A stretch of DNA of 8,151 nt from Bacilli bacterium (GTDB taxonomy: Bacteria; Bacillota_I; Bacilli_A; RF39; UBA660): positions 1 through 8,151 of the forward strand of contig CAADST010000019.1 in NCBI GenBank assembly GCA_900751815.1, read 5' to 3'. The notes under the pieces were generated by a model. The model worked only from the letters and a program-made list of their open reading frames with translations. It did no database searches and was not told the origin of the DNA. Below are positions 2,856-6,971 of this stretch, piece by piece; positions within the stretch are counted from its first letter, which is position 1; every line of letters starts with the position of its first letter. Made by a program: the position numbers and the translations under genes.

Positions 2856-2883
2856 TTGACACAGGATAAATCTGTAGTATAAT
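2856..2883 (+). promoter_or_regulatory. Consensus sigma-A promoter driving the candidate small RNA
   Basis: TTGACA (2856-2861) and TATAAT (2878-2883) are exact consensus hexamers with a 16-base spacer. It is the best-matching promoter I found in the window, yet no plus-strand ORF of any size follows. Predicted start is around 2889-2891, just before the 12-bp closing stem that begins at 2892. Confidence 0.8.
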
Positions 2884-2889
2884 AGTATT

Positions 2890-2993
2890 TATAGGGCGAT
2901 ATCTTTTTCATATTTTTACCAAAGTATATATTATTATATATACTTTTGATATCGTCCTACAAAAAAGTACAAGTTTAGGCTTGTACTTTTTTA
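2890..2993 (+). ncRNA. Candidate structured small RNA of unknown family, about 103 nt
   Basis: The RNA would run from the consensus promoter to the terminator at 2961-2992. An outer stem pairs 2892-2903 (TAGGGCGATATC) with 2948-2959 (GATATCGTCCTA): 12 pairs, one of them G-U (2896 with 2955). An inner hairpin pairs 2921-2931 with 2936-2946: 11 perfect pairs with loop TATT. A 17-base pyrimidine-rich single strand (2904-2920) joins the two stems on the 5' side, with a single base on the 3' side. The wobble pair is G-U only in the plus-strand RNA and would be an A-C mismatch on the minus strand, which supports the assigned strand. There is no plus-strand ATG in the body. The motifs of SRP RNA, tmRNA, RNase P RNA and 6S RNA are absent. 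The ends are predicted. An alternative is a short inverted-repeat (MITE-like) element. Confidence 0.65.
2961..2992. terminator. Strong bidirectional terminator shared by the small RNA and the tex operon
   Basis: AAAAAAGTACAAG (2961-2973) and CTTGTACTTTTTT (2980-2992) form a perfect 13-bp stem with loop TTTAGG. It ends in six T on the plus strand and, read on the minus strand, also in six T, so it can stop transcription both ways. The last codons and the TAA stop (2977-2975) of the AI-2E family gene lie within it. Confidence 0.85.
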
Positions 2994-4105
2994 TTTGTCT
3001 TATTTTTATCTTCTAATCTGATTCTTACATTTGTTGCTAAAATACTATAAATAATTGAACAAATTGGCACACTTAAAAGCATACCTAATACTCCATTAAT
3101 ACTTGCTCCAACACTAACAGCTACTAAAACCCAAATACCAGGAAGTCCAACAGATTTACCAACAACCTTTGGATAAATTAAGTTACCTTCAAGTTGTTGT
3201 AAAATAATTATAAACATAACGAATATTATTGCTTGAAGTGGACTTACCATAAATATTAAGAAAGCTCCAAAAATTGTACCAATAAAAGCTCCAAATACTG
3301 GTATAAGAGCAGTAAAACCAACTAAAACAGAAATTGTTGAAGCATAAGGAAGTCTAAGAATAACCATTCCGAAGAAACAAAGAACTCCAATAATTATTGC
3401 TTCGATACATTGACCACTTACAAAATGAGAAAATACTTTATTAGATAATGTTGCAATCTCTTTTATTTTACTTATTTTCTTTTTAGGTAAATAAGCATCC
3501 ATTACTTTATTAAATTGACTAGCTATTTTTTCTTTTTGCGCTAGAAAATAAATAGCAAATACAAAACCAATTGTAATATTAACAAAACCAGTAACGACAT
3601 TTGAAGCAATACCTAAAGTAACATCTATTACTTGATTAGAATTATTTTTAATATACTCAGCAAGTGTTGTTCCTAAAGAATCTAATACTTCTCTAATTTC
3701 ATTTATCACTTCAGCATTAATACCCCAACCATTAAGTAAATTTTGTAAACTCCTACTATAAGCGGGAATACTATCAGCAAATAATTCTATTGTATTTTGC
3801 AAATTTGGAATAATTAAAAGTAATAAGAAAACTATAAAACCTAAAACTAAAGCGATAGAAACAAGTAAACTTATTGGCCTTTTAACTTTAGTACTAGCCT
3901 TCCATTTTTTAAACCATTTATTTTCAATCGTATTCATTAAAACATTTAAAACAAAAGCAATAGCTAAACCAATTATAAATGGCATAAAAATTCTAATTAC
4001 AAATTTAACAAATGACCAGATTTCTGATATATAAATAAATGCAAATATTAAAACTATTGCCATTATAACTAATTTTTTAATATCCTTAATATCTACCTTT
4101 TTCAT
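2975..4105 (-). CDS. AI-2E family (PerM/YdiK-like) membrane transporter
   Basis: Integral membrane protein of 376 residues, the usual size for the AI-2E transporter family (PF01594). Members have been linked to autoinducer-2 export and to sodium/proton exchange; the substrate here cannot be told from sequence. Hydrophobic segments lie at about 10-28, 36-58, 78-100, 163-189, 232-252, 256-285, 290-305 and 324-356, consistent with seven or eight membrane spans. The family's conserved C-terminal half is clear: ALIPVFGAFIG (266-276), then QQLEGNLIYPKVVGKSVGLP (303-322). The extracytoplasmic-type helical insert between the third and fourth spans is also typical. ATG at 4105-4103 overlaps the TGA of the preceding gene (ATGA overlap) and has a near-perfect SD, AAGGAGGG, at 4120-4113. 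It is last in the operon and its 3' end is inside the terminator. Confidence 0.9.
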   Translation of the reverse strand: MKKVDIKDIKKLVIMAIVLIFAFIYISEIWSFVKFVIRIFMPFIIGLAIAFVLNVLMNTIENKWFKKWKASTKVKRPISLLVSIALVLGFIVFLLLLIIPNLQNTIELFADSIPAYSRSLQNLLNGWGINAEVINEIREVLDSLGTTLAEYIKNNSNQVIDVTLGIASNVVTGFVNITIGFVFAIYFLAQKEKIASQFNKVMDAYLPKKKISKIKEIATLSNKVFSHFVSGQCIEAIIIGVLCFFGMVILRLPYASTISVLVGFTALIPVFGAFIGTIFGAFLIFMVSPLQAIIFVMFIIILQQLEGNLIYPKVVGKSVGLPGIWVLVAVSVGASINGVLGMLLSVPICSIIYSILATNVRIRLEDKNKTNKKVQA

Positions 4106-4827
4106 TGATCAACCCTCCTTTCTAAACTATTTAAAAAGTCAATAACATTTTCTATACTATAAACAACAAATTGGGTTCTATTATTCATCTCTCTGATAAC
4201 AATTAATTCATTTTCACTAAAATCTTGAAAAGTTAAAGTATAACCGCTGCCTTCCATACTAGCATCCACTTTAAGTGTTACATTTGCTTCATAATCATCA
4301 ACAATAACTGGATCTTCTACTTTTTCAGATTCATAAACCCTATTTATTAACTCACTCATAGCATTATCGGTAATATCTCCTGTGACATATAAACTTAAAG
4401 TATCATATTCATAAATCCACATATCACTAAGTTTATATTCTTCACTACAATAATTACCATTATCCATATGAATAGAAACACTTCTTAAATATTTATCATT
4501 ACTTATATTATAATCTATTATAGTTATACCATTATTACTATCATAATAATATCTATCGTAACATTTTTCCAAAGAATTCAAATAACTATTCTTAGCTTCA
4601 TTTAATGTCTCATAATTAAGTGGGGTTAAAAATGAAGCTGTAAGATCACTATTTATATCTTCAAAATACATAAATCTATTAATTGGTATTCCATCACCCA
4701 TCATAAAATCTTCTGTATATATTTCATTAATAAATGTTTTATTAATTAAAAGCAAAAATGCTAAAGCCATAAAACCAAAGACTAATACTAATTCGATTGC
4801 TCCGAAGAGCCATTTTAAATATCTCAT
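4102..4827 (-). CDS. Membrane-anchored protein of unknown function (single N-terminal transmembrane helix)
   Basis: I do not recognise this protein. With the start chosen here it has 241 residues: a short basic N-terminus (MRYLKWLF), one strongly hydrophobic segment at about 7-29, and then a roughly 210-residue polar domain likely outside the membrane. There is no lipobox Cys after the hydrophobic segment, so it looks like an uncleaved anchor. The polar part is rich in Asn, Asp, Tyr and Ser, and near its end has alternating hydrophobic residues suggesting beta strands (GYTLTFQDF, TQFVVYSI). The longest frame would begin at GTG 4833-4831, but that codon overlaps the SD itself. The ATG at 4827-4825 is placed correctly (see the site at 4833-4838) and is preferred. 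It lies between tex and the AI-2E family gene and overlaps the latter by four bases, so it may act with that transporter; this is inferred from position only. Confidence 0.75.
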   Translation of the reverse strand: MRYLKWLFGAIELVLVFGFMALAFLLLINKTFINEIYTEDFMMGDGIPINRFMYFEDINSDLTASFLTPLNYETLNEAKNSYLNSLEKCYDRYYYDSNNGITIIDYNISNDKYLRSVSIHMDNGNYCSEEYKLSDMWIYEYDTLSLYVTGDITDNAMSELINRVYESEKVEDPVIVDDYEANVTLKVDASMEGSGYTLTFQDFSENELIVIREMNNRTQFVVYSIENVIDFLNSLERRVDQ

Positions 4828-4829
4828 AT

Positions 4830-6971
4830 TCACTCCTCGATTAAAGATAAACTTACTCTTCCCTTATCTTTTTCTATTCCACAAATGTGGACATTTATTA
4901 TATCTCCAACTTTTAAAATCTCACTAGGATGTTTAACAAAACCTTTACTCATTTTAGAAATGTGTATTAAAGCATCATCATGAAGACCAATATCAACAAA
5001 AGCACCGAATGCCGTAACATTACGAACAGTACCTTCAAGTTCCATACCAAGTTCTAAATCATCAATTGAAAGTATATCACTTCTTAAAGTCATTTGTTTT
5101 ATTTCATCCCGTGGATCAATTACCCCATTTACTAAATTATCTTTGATAAGTTGCCACTTTTCTTCGGAAATATTATATTTTTCTAATATTTCTTTATCAT
5201 TTAATTTATTTATTTCTTCTTGCATTTTACTTGTTCCAACCAAAGATACATCAATTTTATAATCACCTAATATTTTATTAACAATATCATAATCTTCGGG
5301 GTGAATATTAGTTTTATCTAGAGGATTATCACCATTAAATATCCTTAAGAACCCTGCAGATTGTTCAAATGCTTTAGCATTATCTTCAACACTCTCAAGT
5401 TCACTCCTCGATTTAATTACCCCATTTTTCTTGCGATAATCTAGTATCTTTTTAATAATACTTTTATTTAAACCAGAGACATAATTTAAAATACTTTCAC
5501 TAGCATTATTTAAATTAACTCCAACCTTATTAACTATTTTACTTACAACAAATGAAAGTTCTTCATCAAGTTCTTTTTGTTTTAAATCATGTTGATAAAG
5601 TCCTACTCCAATACTTTTTGGATCAATCTTAACAAGTTCTGATAAAGCATCTTGCAATCTTCTACCAATACTTACAGCACTTCTTTGTTCAACAGAGTAA
5701 TCTGGAAATTCGCGTTTTGCTAAAGGCGATGCCGAATAAACACTAGCACCCGCTTCACTAACAATGACATATTTAACATCTAAATTATATTTTTTTATTA
5801 AGTTAGCCACAAATGCTTCACTTTCACGGGAAGCTGTACCATTACCAATAGCAATTATTTTAACATTGTGCTTCCCAATCAATGCCAGCATAATTTTTTC
5901 CGCCATATCAACTTCTTTTTTAGGTTCATGGGGATAAATCACGCCAATTTCTAGAACTTCACCAGTTGGTGATAAAACTGCTAGTTTGCAACCAGTTCTA
6001 AAAGCTGGATCAAAGCCCATAACAACACTGCCCTTTATCGGAGGTGTTAATAATAAATTTTCTAAGTTATTACCAAATTCTTCAATACCAAATTCACTGG
6101 CTTTATCAAATAATTCTGCTTTAATATCTCGCTCTAAAGAAGGCTCTAGTAATCTTTTCCAAGCATCCATTATAAACGCTTCCATATCACTTATAAGCGG
6201 ACTTTTTTTATTGCCAATTACTTGGTCATGTAAATATTCTAAGACTTTTTTACTATCAACACTTAAACTATAAGTGACAATTTTTTCTTTTTCTGCTCTA
6301 TTAATAGCTAGTATTTGATGTGGTTTAATATTAGTTATTTTAGCTTCAAAATTATAATATATTTCATAAACTTTGTTAGGGTCTTCCGCATTCTTTTTTA
6401 GTTTGGAAGTAATTACCCCATTATACCAATAATATTTTCTAATATATTTACGATATTTAGGATTATCACTTATCCAATCTGCAATAATATATCCGGCATT
6501 TGTTATAGCATCATCTATTGTCTTTACGCTTTCATTTAAAAAGTCTTTAGCCACTTCATCCCTAGTTTTATTAGGTAAGCTCATAATAATTTTTGCTAAA
6601 GGTTCTAAGCCCATTTTAATAGCTTCAGTTCCCTTAGTTTTTCTTTTTTCTTTAAATGGCGCATAGATATCTTCAACTTCACTAAGACGAGTTGCTTCAT
6701 CAATGGCTTTTACTAACTCTGGAGTAAGCATTCCTTTTTCATCAATTAATCTTTTAACATCATCTTTGCGTGCTTGTAAATTAACCGCATAGTTATATTC
6801 GGTTTCAATAAGCCGCAATTCTTCTTCATTTAAATTACCTGTTACTTCTTTACGATATCTCGCAATAAAAGGAATAGTTGCCCCTTCACTAAGCATATTT
6901 ATAACAGCCTTAATTTGATTAGACCCTAAATTTATTTTACTACTTACTTTGTTTATAACTTCTTCATTCAT
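4830..6971 (-). CDS. tex: Tex, S1-domain RNA-binding transcription accessory protein
   Basis: Cytoplasmic nucleic-acid-binding protein of the Tex family, which associates with transcription and, in some bacteria, affects toxin expression and stress tolerance. Length is 713 residues, slightly short of the usual 720-780. Domains in order: N-terminal Tex helical region (about 1-190, with IPFIARYRKEVTG at 33-45), YqgF/RNase H-like domain (about 315-445, with DPAFRTGCKLAVL at 321-333, GNGTASRE at 377-384 and EAGASVYSAS at 406-415), helix-hairpin-helix regions (about 450-630, with DPKSIGVGLYQHD at 450-462), and a C-terminal S1 domain (about 640-710, with GTVRNVTAFGAFVDIG at 647-662). The family's central Asn/Cys motif is altered (KIVNKVGVNLNNAS at 478-491, no Cys). 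ATG at 6971-6969 has SD AGAGGT (6984-6979). It is first in a three-gene operon with its own promoter. Confidence 0.96.
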   Translation of the reverse strand: MNEEVINKVSSKINLGSNQIKAVINMLSEGATIPFIARYRKEVTGNLNEEELRLIETEYNYAVNLQARKDDVKRLIDEKGMLTPELVKAIDEATRLSEVEDIYAPFKEKRKTKGTEAIKMGLEPLAKIIMSLPNKTRDEVAKDFLNESVKTIDDAITNAGYIIADWISDNPKYRKYIRKYYWYNGVITSKLKKNAEDPNKVYEIYYNFEAKITNIKPHQILAINRAEKEKIVTYSLSVDSKKVLEYLHDQVIGNKKSPLISDMEAFIMDAWKRLLEPSLERDIKAELFDKASEFGIEEFGNNLENLLLTPPIKGSVVMGFDPAFRTGCKLAVLSPTGEVLEIGVIYPHEPKKEVDMAEKIMLALIGKHNVKIIAIGNGTASRESEAFVANLIKKYNLDVKYVIVSEAGASVYSASPLAKREFPDYSVEQRSAVSIGRRLQDALSELVKIDPKSIGVGLYQHDLKQKELDEELSFVVSKIVNKVGVNLNNASESILNYVSGLNKSIIKKILDYRKKNGVIKSRSELESVEDNAKAFEQSAGFLRIFNGDNPLDKTNIHPEDYDIVNKILGDYKIDVSLVGTSKMQEEINKLNDKEILEKYNISEEKWQLIKDNLVNGVIDPRDEIKQMTLRSDILSIDDLELGMELEGTVRNVTAFGAFVDIGLHDDALIHISKMSKGFVKHPSEILKVGDIINVHICGIEKDKGRVSLSLIEE
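4833..4838 (-). promoter_or_regulatory. Shine-Dalgarno site that fixes the start at ATG 4827
   Basis: Minus strand GAGGAG (4838-4833), then TGAAT, then ATG (4827-4825): a five-base spacing. The upstream GTG (4833-4831) shares its first G with this site and cannot be served by it. The tex TGA stop (4832-4830) lies between the site and the ATG, so tex ribosomes end exactly where the next gene starts, which suits translational coupling. Confidence 0.8.

Follow-up and report, generated by a model that had tools for sequence, protein, structure and literature searches.

Comparative data support the presence of a stand-alone small RNA gene in the window, the 8,151-nt stretch of contig CAADST010000019.1 that was analysed as a whole. 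The predicted RNA is encoded by the plus strand, between sufS and an AI-2E gene. In related genomes its predicted promoter, two covarying helices (P1 and P2), conserved bulge and terminator stay together while the neighbouring genes change. It represents a well-supported small RNA family that has no match in Rfam 15, in an uncultured Bacilli lineage with no Hfq found among 30 genomes. A near-invariant open strand between covarying helices points with unusual clarity to a functional surface; this exposed strand would be the obvious working part of the molecule, and it offers a defined probe for finding the partner.

Besides sufU and sufS, the window contains a gene of the AI-2E/PerM type, one that has no Pfam match, and tex on the minus strand; we presume the names SufU, SufS and PerM from the Pfam domains. 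The features of the RNA gene are listed in Table 1.

Table 1. Predicted features of the small RNA gene (positions in the window)
Feature	Positions	Strand	Basis and remarks
-35 box TTGACA	2856..2861	+	Exact; TTGAC retained in 16/16 sequences (window and L001-L015)
-10 box TATAAT	2878..2883	+	Exact; in 16/16 sequences (window and L001-L015)
Predicted small RNA, about 104 nt	2890..2993	+	Putative start from the distance to the -10 box, putative end from the terminator
Outer stem P1, 5' arm	2892..2903	+	MFE fold and covariation
One-sided bulge, 17 nt unpaired	2904..2920	+	96.5% mean pairwise identity, 19 sequences
Inner hairpin P2 (2921-2931 with 2936-2946)	2921..2946	+	MFE fold and covariation
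Outer stem P1, 3' arm	2948..2959	+	MFE fold and covariation
Intrinsic terminator, 14-bp hairpin (2961-2974/2979-2992) and T-run	2961..2993	+	Fold

The two promoter boxes are separated by 16 nt and form the sole 12-of-12 match found by a promoter scan of the window. The total of promoter-like sites, 69, is near the level of shuffled sequences (61.8 ± 7.4), so that the perfect match alone stands out. Scanning with the SufS protein yielded 80 related loci, the 15 nearest of which are referred to as L001-L015. In all 16 sequences (the window and L001-L015), the spacer is 16-17 nt (16 in L003, by reading) and the -10 box ends 5-6 nt before P1 (6 in L003, by reading), so the start of transcription is predicted inside P1. 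The MFE fold of positions 2890-2997 has an energy of -38.1 kcal/mol (z = -10.65), which none of 200 shuffles equalled; P1 comprises 12 bp, P2 11 bp and the terminator 14 bp, with a single G-U pair, 2896:2955, on the plus strand. The preliminary description had read exact promoter boxes, a 12-bp outer stem, an 11-bp inner hairpin and one plus-strand G-U pair, all of which are borne out; the terminator hairpin that it reported is also present, with T's after it, and only its length of 13 bp had to be corrected. The PerM ORF runs convergently and stops at 2975, and its final codons overlap the hairpin. The list of ORFs contains no plus-strand ORF of at least 50 aa at the site, and there is no ATG in 2890-2993. 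The site carries its own promoter and an intrinsic terminator without an ORF, as is expected of a trans-encoded bacterial small RNA.

All 15 gaps of L001-L015 contain this promoter type along with P1, the bulge, a terminator, and P2 or a weaker form of it. P2 is weak or folded otherwise in L004, L009 and L013, and the terminator is, by reading, replaced by a different hairpin in L001 and L112. A covariance model built from the window and L001-L015 matches 18 of the 30 genus genomes (the 15 and also G356, G400 and G399), with one copy found per genome; the other 12 may lack the RNA or have it on missing contigs. The 19-row alignment was fitted to the model and hence leans towards the structure: 89.1% of its cells pair, 16 of the 23 pairs are altered on both sides, and the covariation is 0.343, compared to 0.180 ± 0.015 for shuffled and 0.049-0.119 for slid partners. 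In a MAFFT alignment of 16 sequences, 87.5% of cells are paired, 15 of the 23 pairs have changed on both sides, and the covariation is 0.316 (0.170 shuffled, at most 0.140 slid). The compensatory changes typical of trans-encoded bacterial small RNAs are seen in both alignments.

The most conserved part of the RNA is not the stem arms but the one-sided bulge, as the mean pairwise identity in the paired columns is 71%, well below the bulge value given in Table 1; the preliminary description had laid no stress on this bulge. Its core, UUUCAUA-U(4-7)-ACYAAA, is nearly invariant across the relatives. The near-invariant stretch spans 18 letters, 2906-2923, and extends three letters into P2. The flanking pairs are also retained: AUC/GAU atop P1 in 16-17 of 19 rows and AAA/UUU at the base of P2 in 15-19 of 19.

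No Rfam family (Rfam 15) reaches its cut-off at the site in the window, and the same is true of 17 loci from relatives. A covariance model from relatives combined with an Rfam search had been proposed as a check in the preliminary description; the outcome, compensated stem changes and no family at cut-off, agrees with its suggestion of a stand-alone undescribed RNA gene, the more so as the unit recurs in 18 of the 30 genomes. It saw no hallmark of SRP RNA, tmRNA, RNase P RNA or 6S RNA; 6S RNA is a separate gene in the genus. A search of literature titles and abstracts returned none that describes this RNA, and the excerpts of two surveys of structured RNAs (PMC8040213, PMC11109978) contain nothing to the point on the lineage or on sufS.

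Strong model matches number 4 among 386 genomes of the family and 11 among 385 genomes of the order. All are genus members, and none lies outside the genus; both sets are samples of larger groups searched with strict filters, so distant relatives could be missed. At the family level there are 16 matches at E ≤ 0.1, of which 12 score 27.1-31.5 bits. Since more than 12 chance matches are expected at this threshold in 386 genomes, these 12 are at chance level. As candidate homologues they were rejected: the 7 of the 12 alignments that were inspected have mismatched stems, a shortened bulge or no P2. At the order level there are 13 matches at E ≤ 0.02, two of them weak (30.2 and 29.5 bits). Weak matches outside the genus are thus at or below the chance number. 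When the model was run without filters on L016-L019 and L021, no score exceeded 16.1 bits, and no match was found in phages and plasmids (blastn) or, with one exact pattern, in viral contigs. In two sister genomes without the RNA, L016 and L019, positions 3800-6100 between the tex operon and sufS are occupied by genes that by eye are sufC- and sufD-like; this is the position of the AI-2E gene and the RNA in the carriers. A SufS tree of all 30 genus genomes, the window and 5 outgroups requires two changes for the presence of the RNA, and one change in 65% of bootstrap trees; a single origin is not rejected on this tree (p-AU 0.33).

As to function, we tentatively propose that this RNA, which is conserved within a single genus, acts through its bulge as an antisense to A-rich translation starts and lowers translation without Hfq, a reading that we hold at somewhat less than even confidence. 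The RNA would be transcribed from its own promoter, and its 5' end, lying in P1, would be paired and stable. The active part would be the bulge, 5'-UUUCAUAUUUUUACY, with the next AAA of P2. Its CAU could pair with AUG and its U-runs with A-rich flanks of the start codon. The partner would be an mRNA, and pairing at the start region would turn its translation down independently of Hfq. Hfq was detected in 0 of the 30 genus genomes, some of which may be incomplete; the same search was positive in 5 of 14 known genomes. The complement of the bulge, UUURGUAAAAAUAUGAAA, is AT-rich and start-like to the eye, and an unpaired CAU, an anti-AUG as in the csRNAs (see below), is present in the bulge in 19/19 sequences.

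Pairing was assessed in two carriers, using 1.08 Mb of G001 (1.4 Mb) and 1.05 Mb of G010 (1.3 Mb), from which a simple gene caller produced 1125 and 1099 ORFs, respectively; these form 600 reciprocal best pairs, and in 396 the starts are consistent. Duplex energies were computed without accessibility. In 400 sampled genes of the two genomes, the bulge favours start over internal coding regions by -1.95 kcal/mol. A preference as strong occurs in 1 of 150 dinucleotide shuffles, in 4 of 120 shuffles containing UCAU and in 11 of 150 with UCAU fixed, while the reversed bulge gives -1.63 kcal/mol; in an earlier run with 500 genes and fewer shuffles, 0 of 52 and 3 of 52 were as strong. The start-region preference is modest evidence for an anti-start action. 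The raw affinity for starts is explained by a CAU within a U-rich sequence, as 13 of 60 shuffles with CAU kept are as strong and 37 of 60 cover AUG as often. For joint start pairing in the 600 ortholog pairs, the best pair was equalled by 16 of 60 shuffles, the fifth best and the mean were reached by none, and the twentieth by 3. Conserved contiguous pairing is at chance: of 100 shuffles, 28 do as well for the best value, 12 for the fifth and 19 for the twentieth. The complement of the bulge does not resemble the start consensus significantly (13% of shuffles do as well), and five 11-12-mers taken from it are all absent from 1582 start windows.

Nearly full-length matches to the bulge or its complement are not enriched in the genus: there are 21 non-self sites in the 18 carriers, compared to 28 for the reversed pattern, and 8 compared to 16 in the other 12 genomes. 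G001 and G004 have a second exact copy of the 18-mer, antisense and upstream of a gene that we take to be SWIM/Snf2-like. It was rejected as a target because the likely -35 box of the gene lies, by eye, downstream of the site, so that the mRNA would not contain it; among 18 relatives retrieved, the upstream region was read in L161, L162, L166 and L168, and the two more distant of these four lack the site. Other recurrent near-copies were also dismissed, being located in coding sequence, in genes for a YitT-like membrane protein and a small HTH regulator (names by eye). Overall, no specific target was found in the covered parts of the two carrier genomes or, for near-copies, in the 30 genus genomes.

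The main rival to the antisense reading is protein binding, in which a specific protein would recognise the bulge and the conserved closing pairs, and the RNA would act by binding or sequestering it. There are well-known precedents: 6S RNA binds RNA polymerase, and CsrB binds CsrA. The 18-letter near-invariant stretch exceeds what a pairing seed needs, which counts against the antisense reading, and retention of the whole bulge along with its flanking pairs is more in keeping with a site for a protein or ligand than with a seed. The negative results of the pairing and near-copy tests also fit a protein partner. On the other hand, the start-region preference would then be a coincidence; TROVE (Ro60/Rsr), the partner of Y RNA, has one partial match in the 30 genomes, in the carrier G005, and 6S RNA is a separate gene. 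Since the start preference is modest and the target tests are negative, the antisense action stays short of even confidence, and protein binding is to be treated as a serious if doubtful contender. The broader idea of a new family of Hfq-independent global regulators, with one gene per genome and a near-invariant anti-start strand of ∼17 nt, kept open between the two stems and damping many A-rich starts in an AT-rich genus, seems to us rather unlikely.

It is improbable that the site is a cis element of sufS or perM, that is, a 3'UTR or antisense control or a shared bidirectional terminator of perM. The idea is suggested by the gene neighbourhood. The order tex, unknown gene, AI-2E, gap, sufS, sufU is kept in L001-L015, apart from L009 and L013, where tblastn gives no match for the unknown gene. 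The RNA is near sufS and the AI-2E/PerM gene in 17 of the 18 carriers; in 16 of the 18 its distance from perM is no more than about 100 nt (about 1.7 kb in G010), and its terminator and the stop of perM overlap in the window. However, in G399 the RNA is located beside the tex operon, sufS is on another contig, and the genome has no AI-2E match at E ≤ 1e-30. Still, the promoter, stems, bulge and terminator are all kept in G399; P1 and the terminator differ in sequence, and the bulge core is the same save for one T fewer in the U-run. Persistence of the RNA without either neighbour, with its bulge kept, speaks for action in trans, on the evidence of this one genome. In addition, L001 carries two hairpins, one before perM that resembles those of the others and one of its own with a T-run, and G405 has perM (57% identity) without a model match to the RNA.

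Several other features of the locus were observed. A conserved 243-aa protein without a Pfam match is encoded at 4102-4833 in the tex operon, and its relative from G399, used as a query, matches 19 of the 30 genus genomes. The protein at 7034-7984 matches HipA_C weakly, at 21.3 bits where the cut-off is 30.5; among L001-L015 it shows 40-91% identity or no match. Upstream of sufS, at 2784-2802 on the minus strand of the window, lies GGACAAGGCCTTTGYTATA; it or a close variant is found 71-89 nt upstream of sufS in L001-L015 and L017, that is, in all 16 carriers examined (the window and L001-L015) and in L017, and was not found in L016, L018 and L019. The element contains the near-palindrome ACAAGGCCTTTGT and continues into TGnTATA; by virtue of these two traits, it could by eye be taken for an operator that acts on a sufS promoter of the extended -10 type.

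Very little speaks for an inverted repeat acting at the DNA level (an operator, or a replication or recombination site) with no RNA gene: any inverted repeat would covary, but G-U pairs occupy 20 cells on the plus strand against 5 A-C cells, i.e. G-U on the other strand (binomial p = 0.004, only a guide as the sequences are related and not independent), the promoter and terminator face the plus strand in the 18 relatives read, and the conserved sequence is the bulge rather than the arms. A miniaturised or divergent housekeeping RNA (6S, SRP, Y RNA, tmRNA or RNase P) would agree with the strong conserved promoter and the single copy found, but is hardly credible given the Rfam results at the site, the TROVE result, the lack of a tmRNA in the window, and 6S RNA above the Rfam cut-off in 26 of the 30 genus genomes, including 15 of the 18 carriers, where it is located elsewhere.

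Among known RNAs, 6S RNA (RF00013) is also a long hairpin with a large unpaired region; the present RNA is shorter, about 104 nt compared to 187 model positions, its bulge is one-sided only, RF00013 is not matched at this locus, and the standard 6S gene sits elsewhere in the genomes. GcvB of enterobacteria serves many mRNA starts through a long single-stranded region that is conserved. It is similar to our RNA in having such a region, and differs in being Hfq-dependent and GU-rich and in its structure. The nearest functional analogue is the csRNA group, the CiaRH-dependent small RNAs of Streptococcus, a genus that apparently lacks hfq; their unpaired regions carry CAU as an anti-AUG in 53 of 61 cases, and they keep the nonamer [A/C]UCCUAAA[A/C] (PMC3091779). 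Unlike the csRNAs, the RNA described here has no anti-Shine-Dalgarno CCUCC, is found in one copy per genome, and has an outer stem enclosing the unpaired stretch, which is nearly invariant while that of the csRNAs varies; the CiaR promoter repeat NTTAAG-N5-TTTAAG is found in 0 of 16 promoters (the window and L001-L015). Still, both are small RNAs of low-GC Gram-positive bacteria apparently without Hfq, both expose an unpaired CAU (PMC3091779 for the csRNAs), and the csRNA nonamer by eye loosely resembles UUACYAAAR of this RNA.
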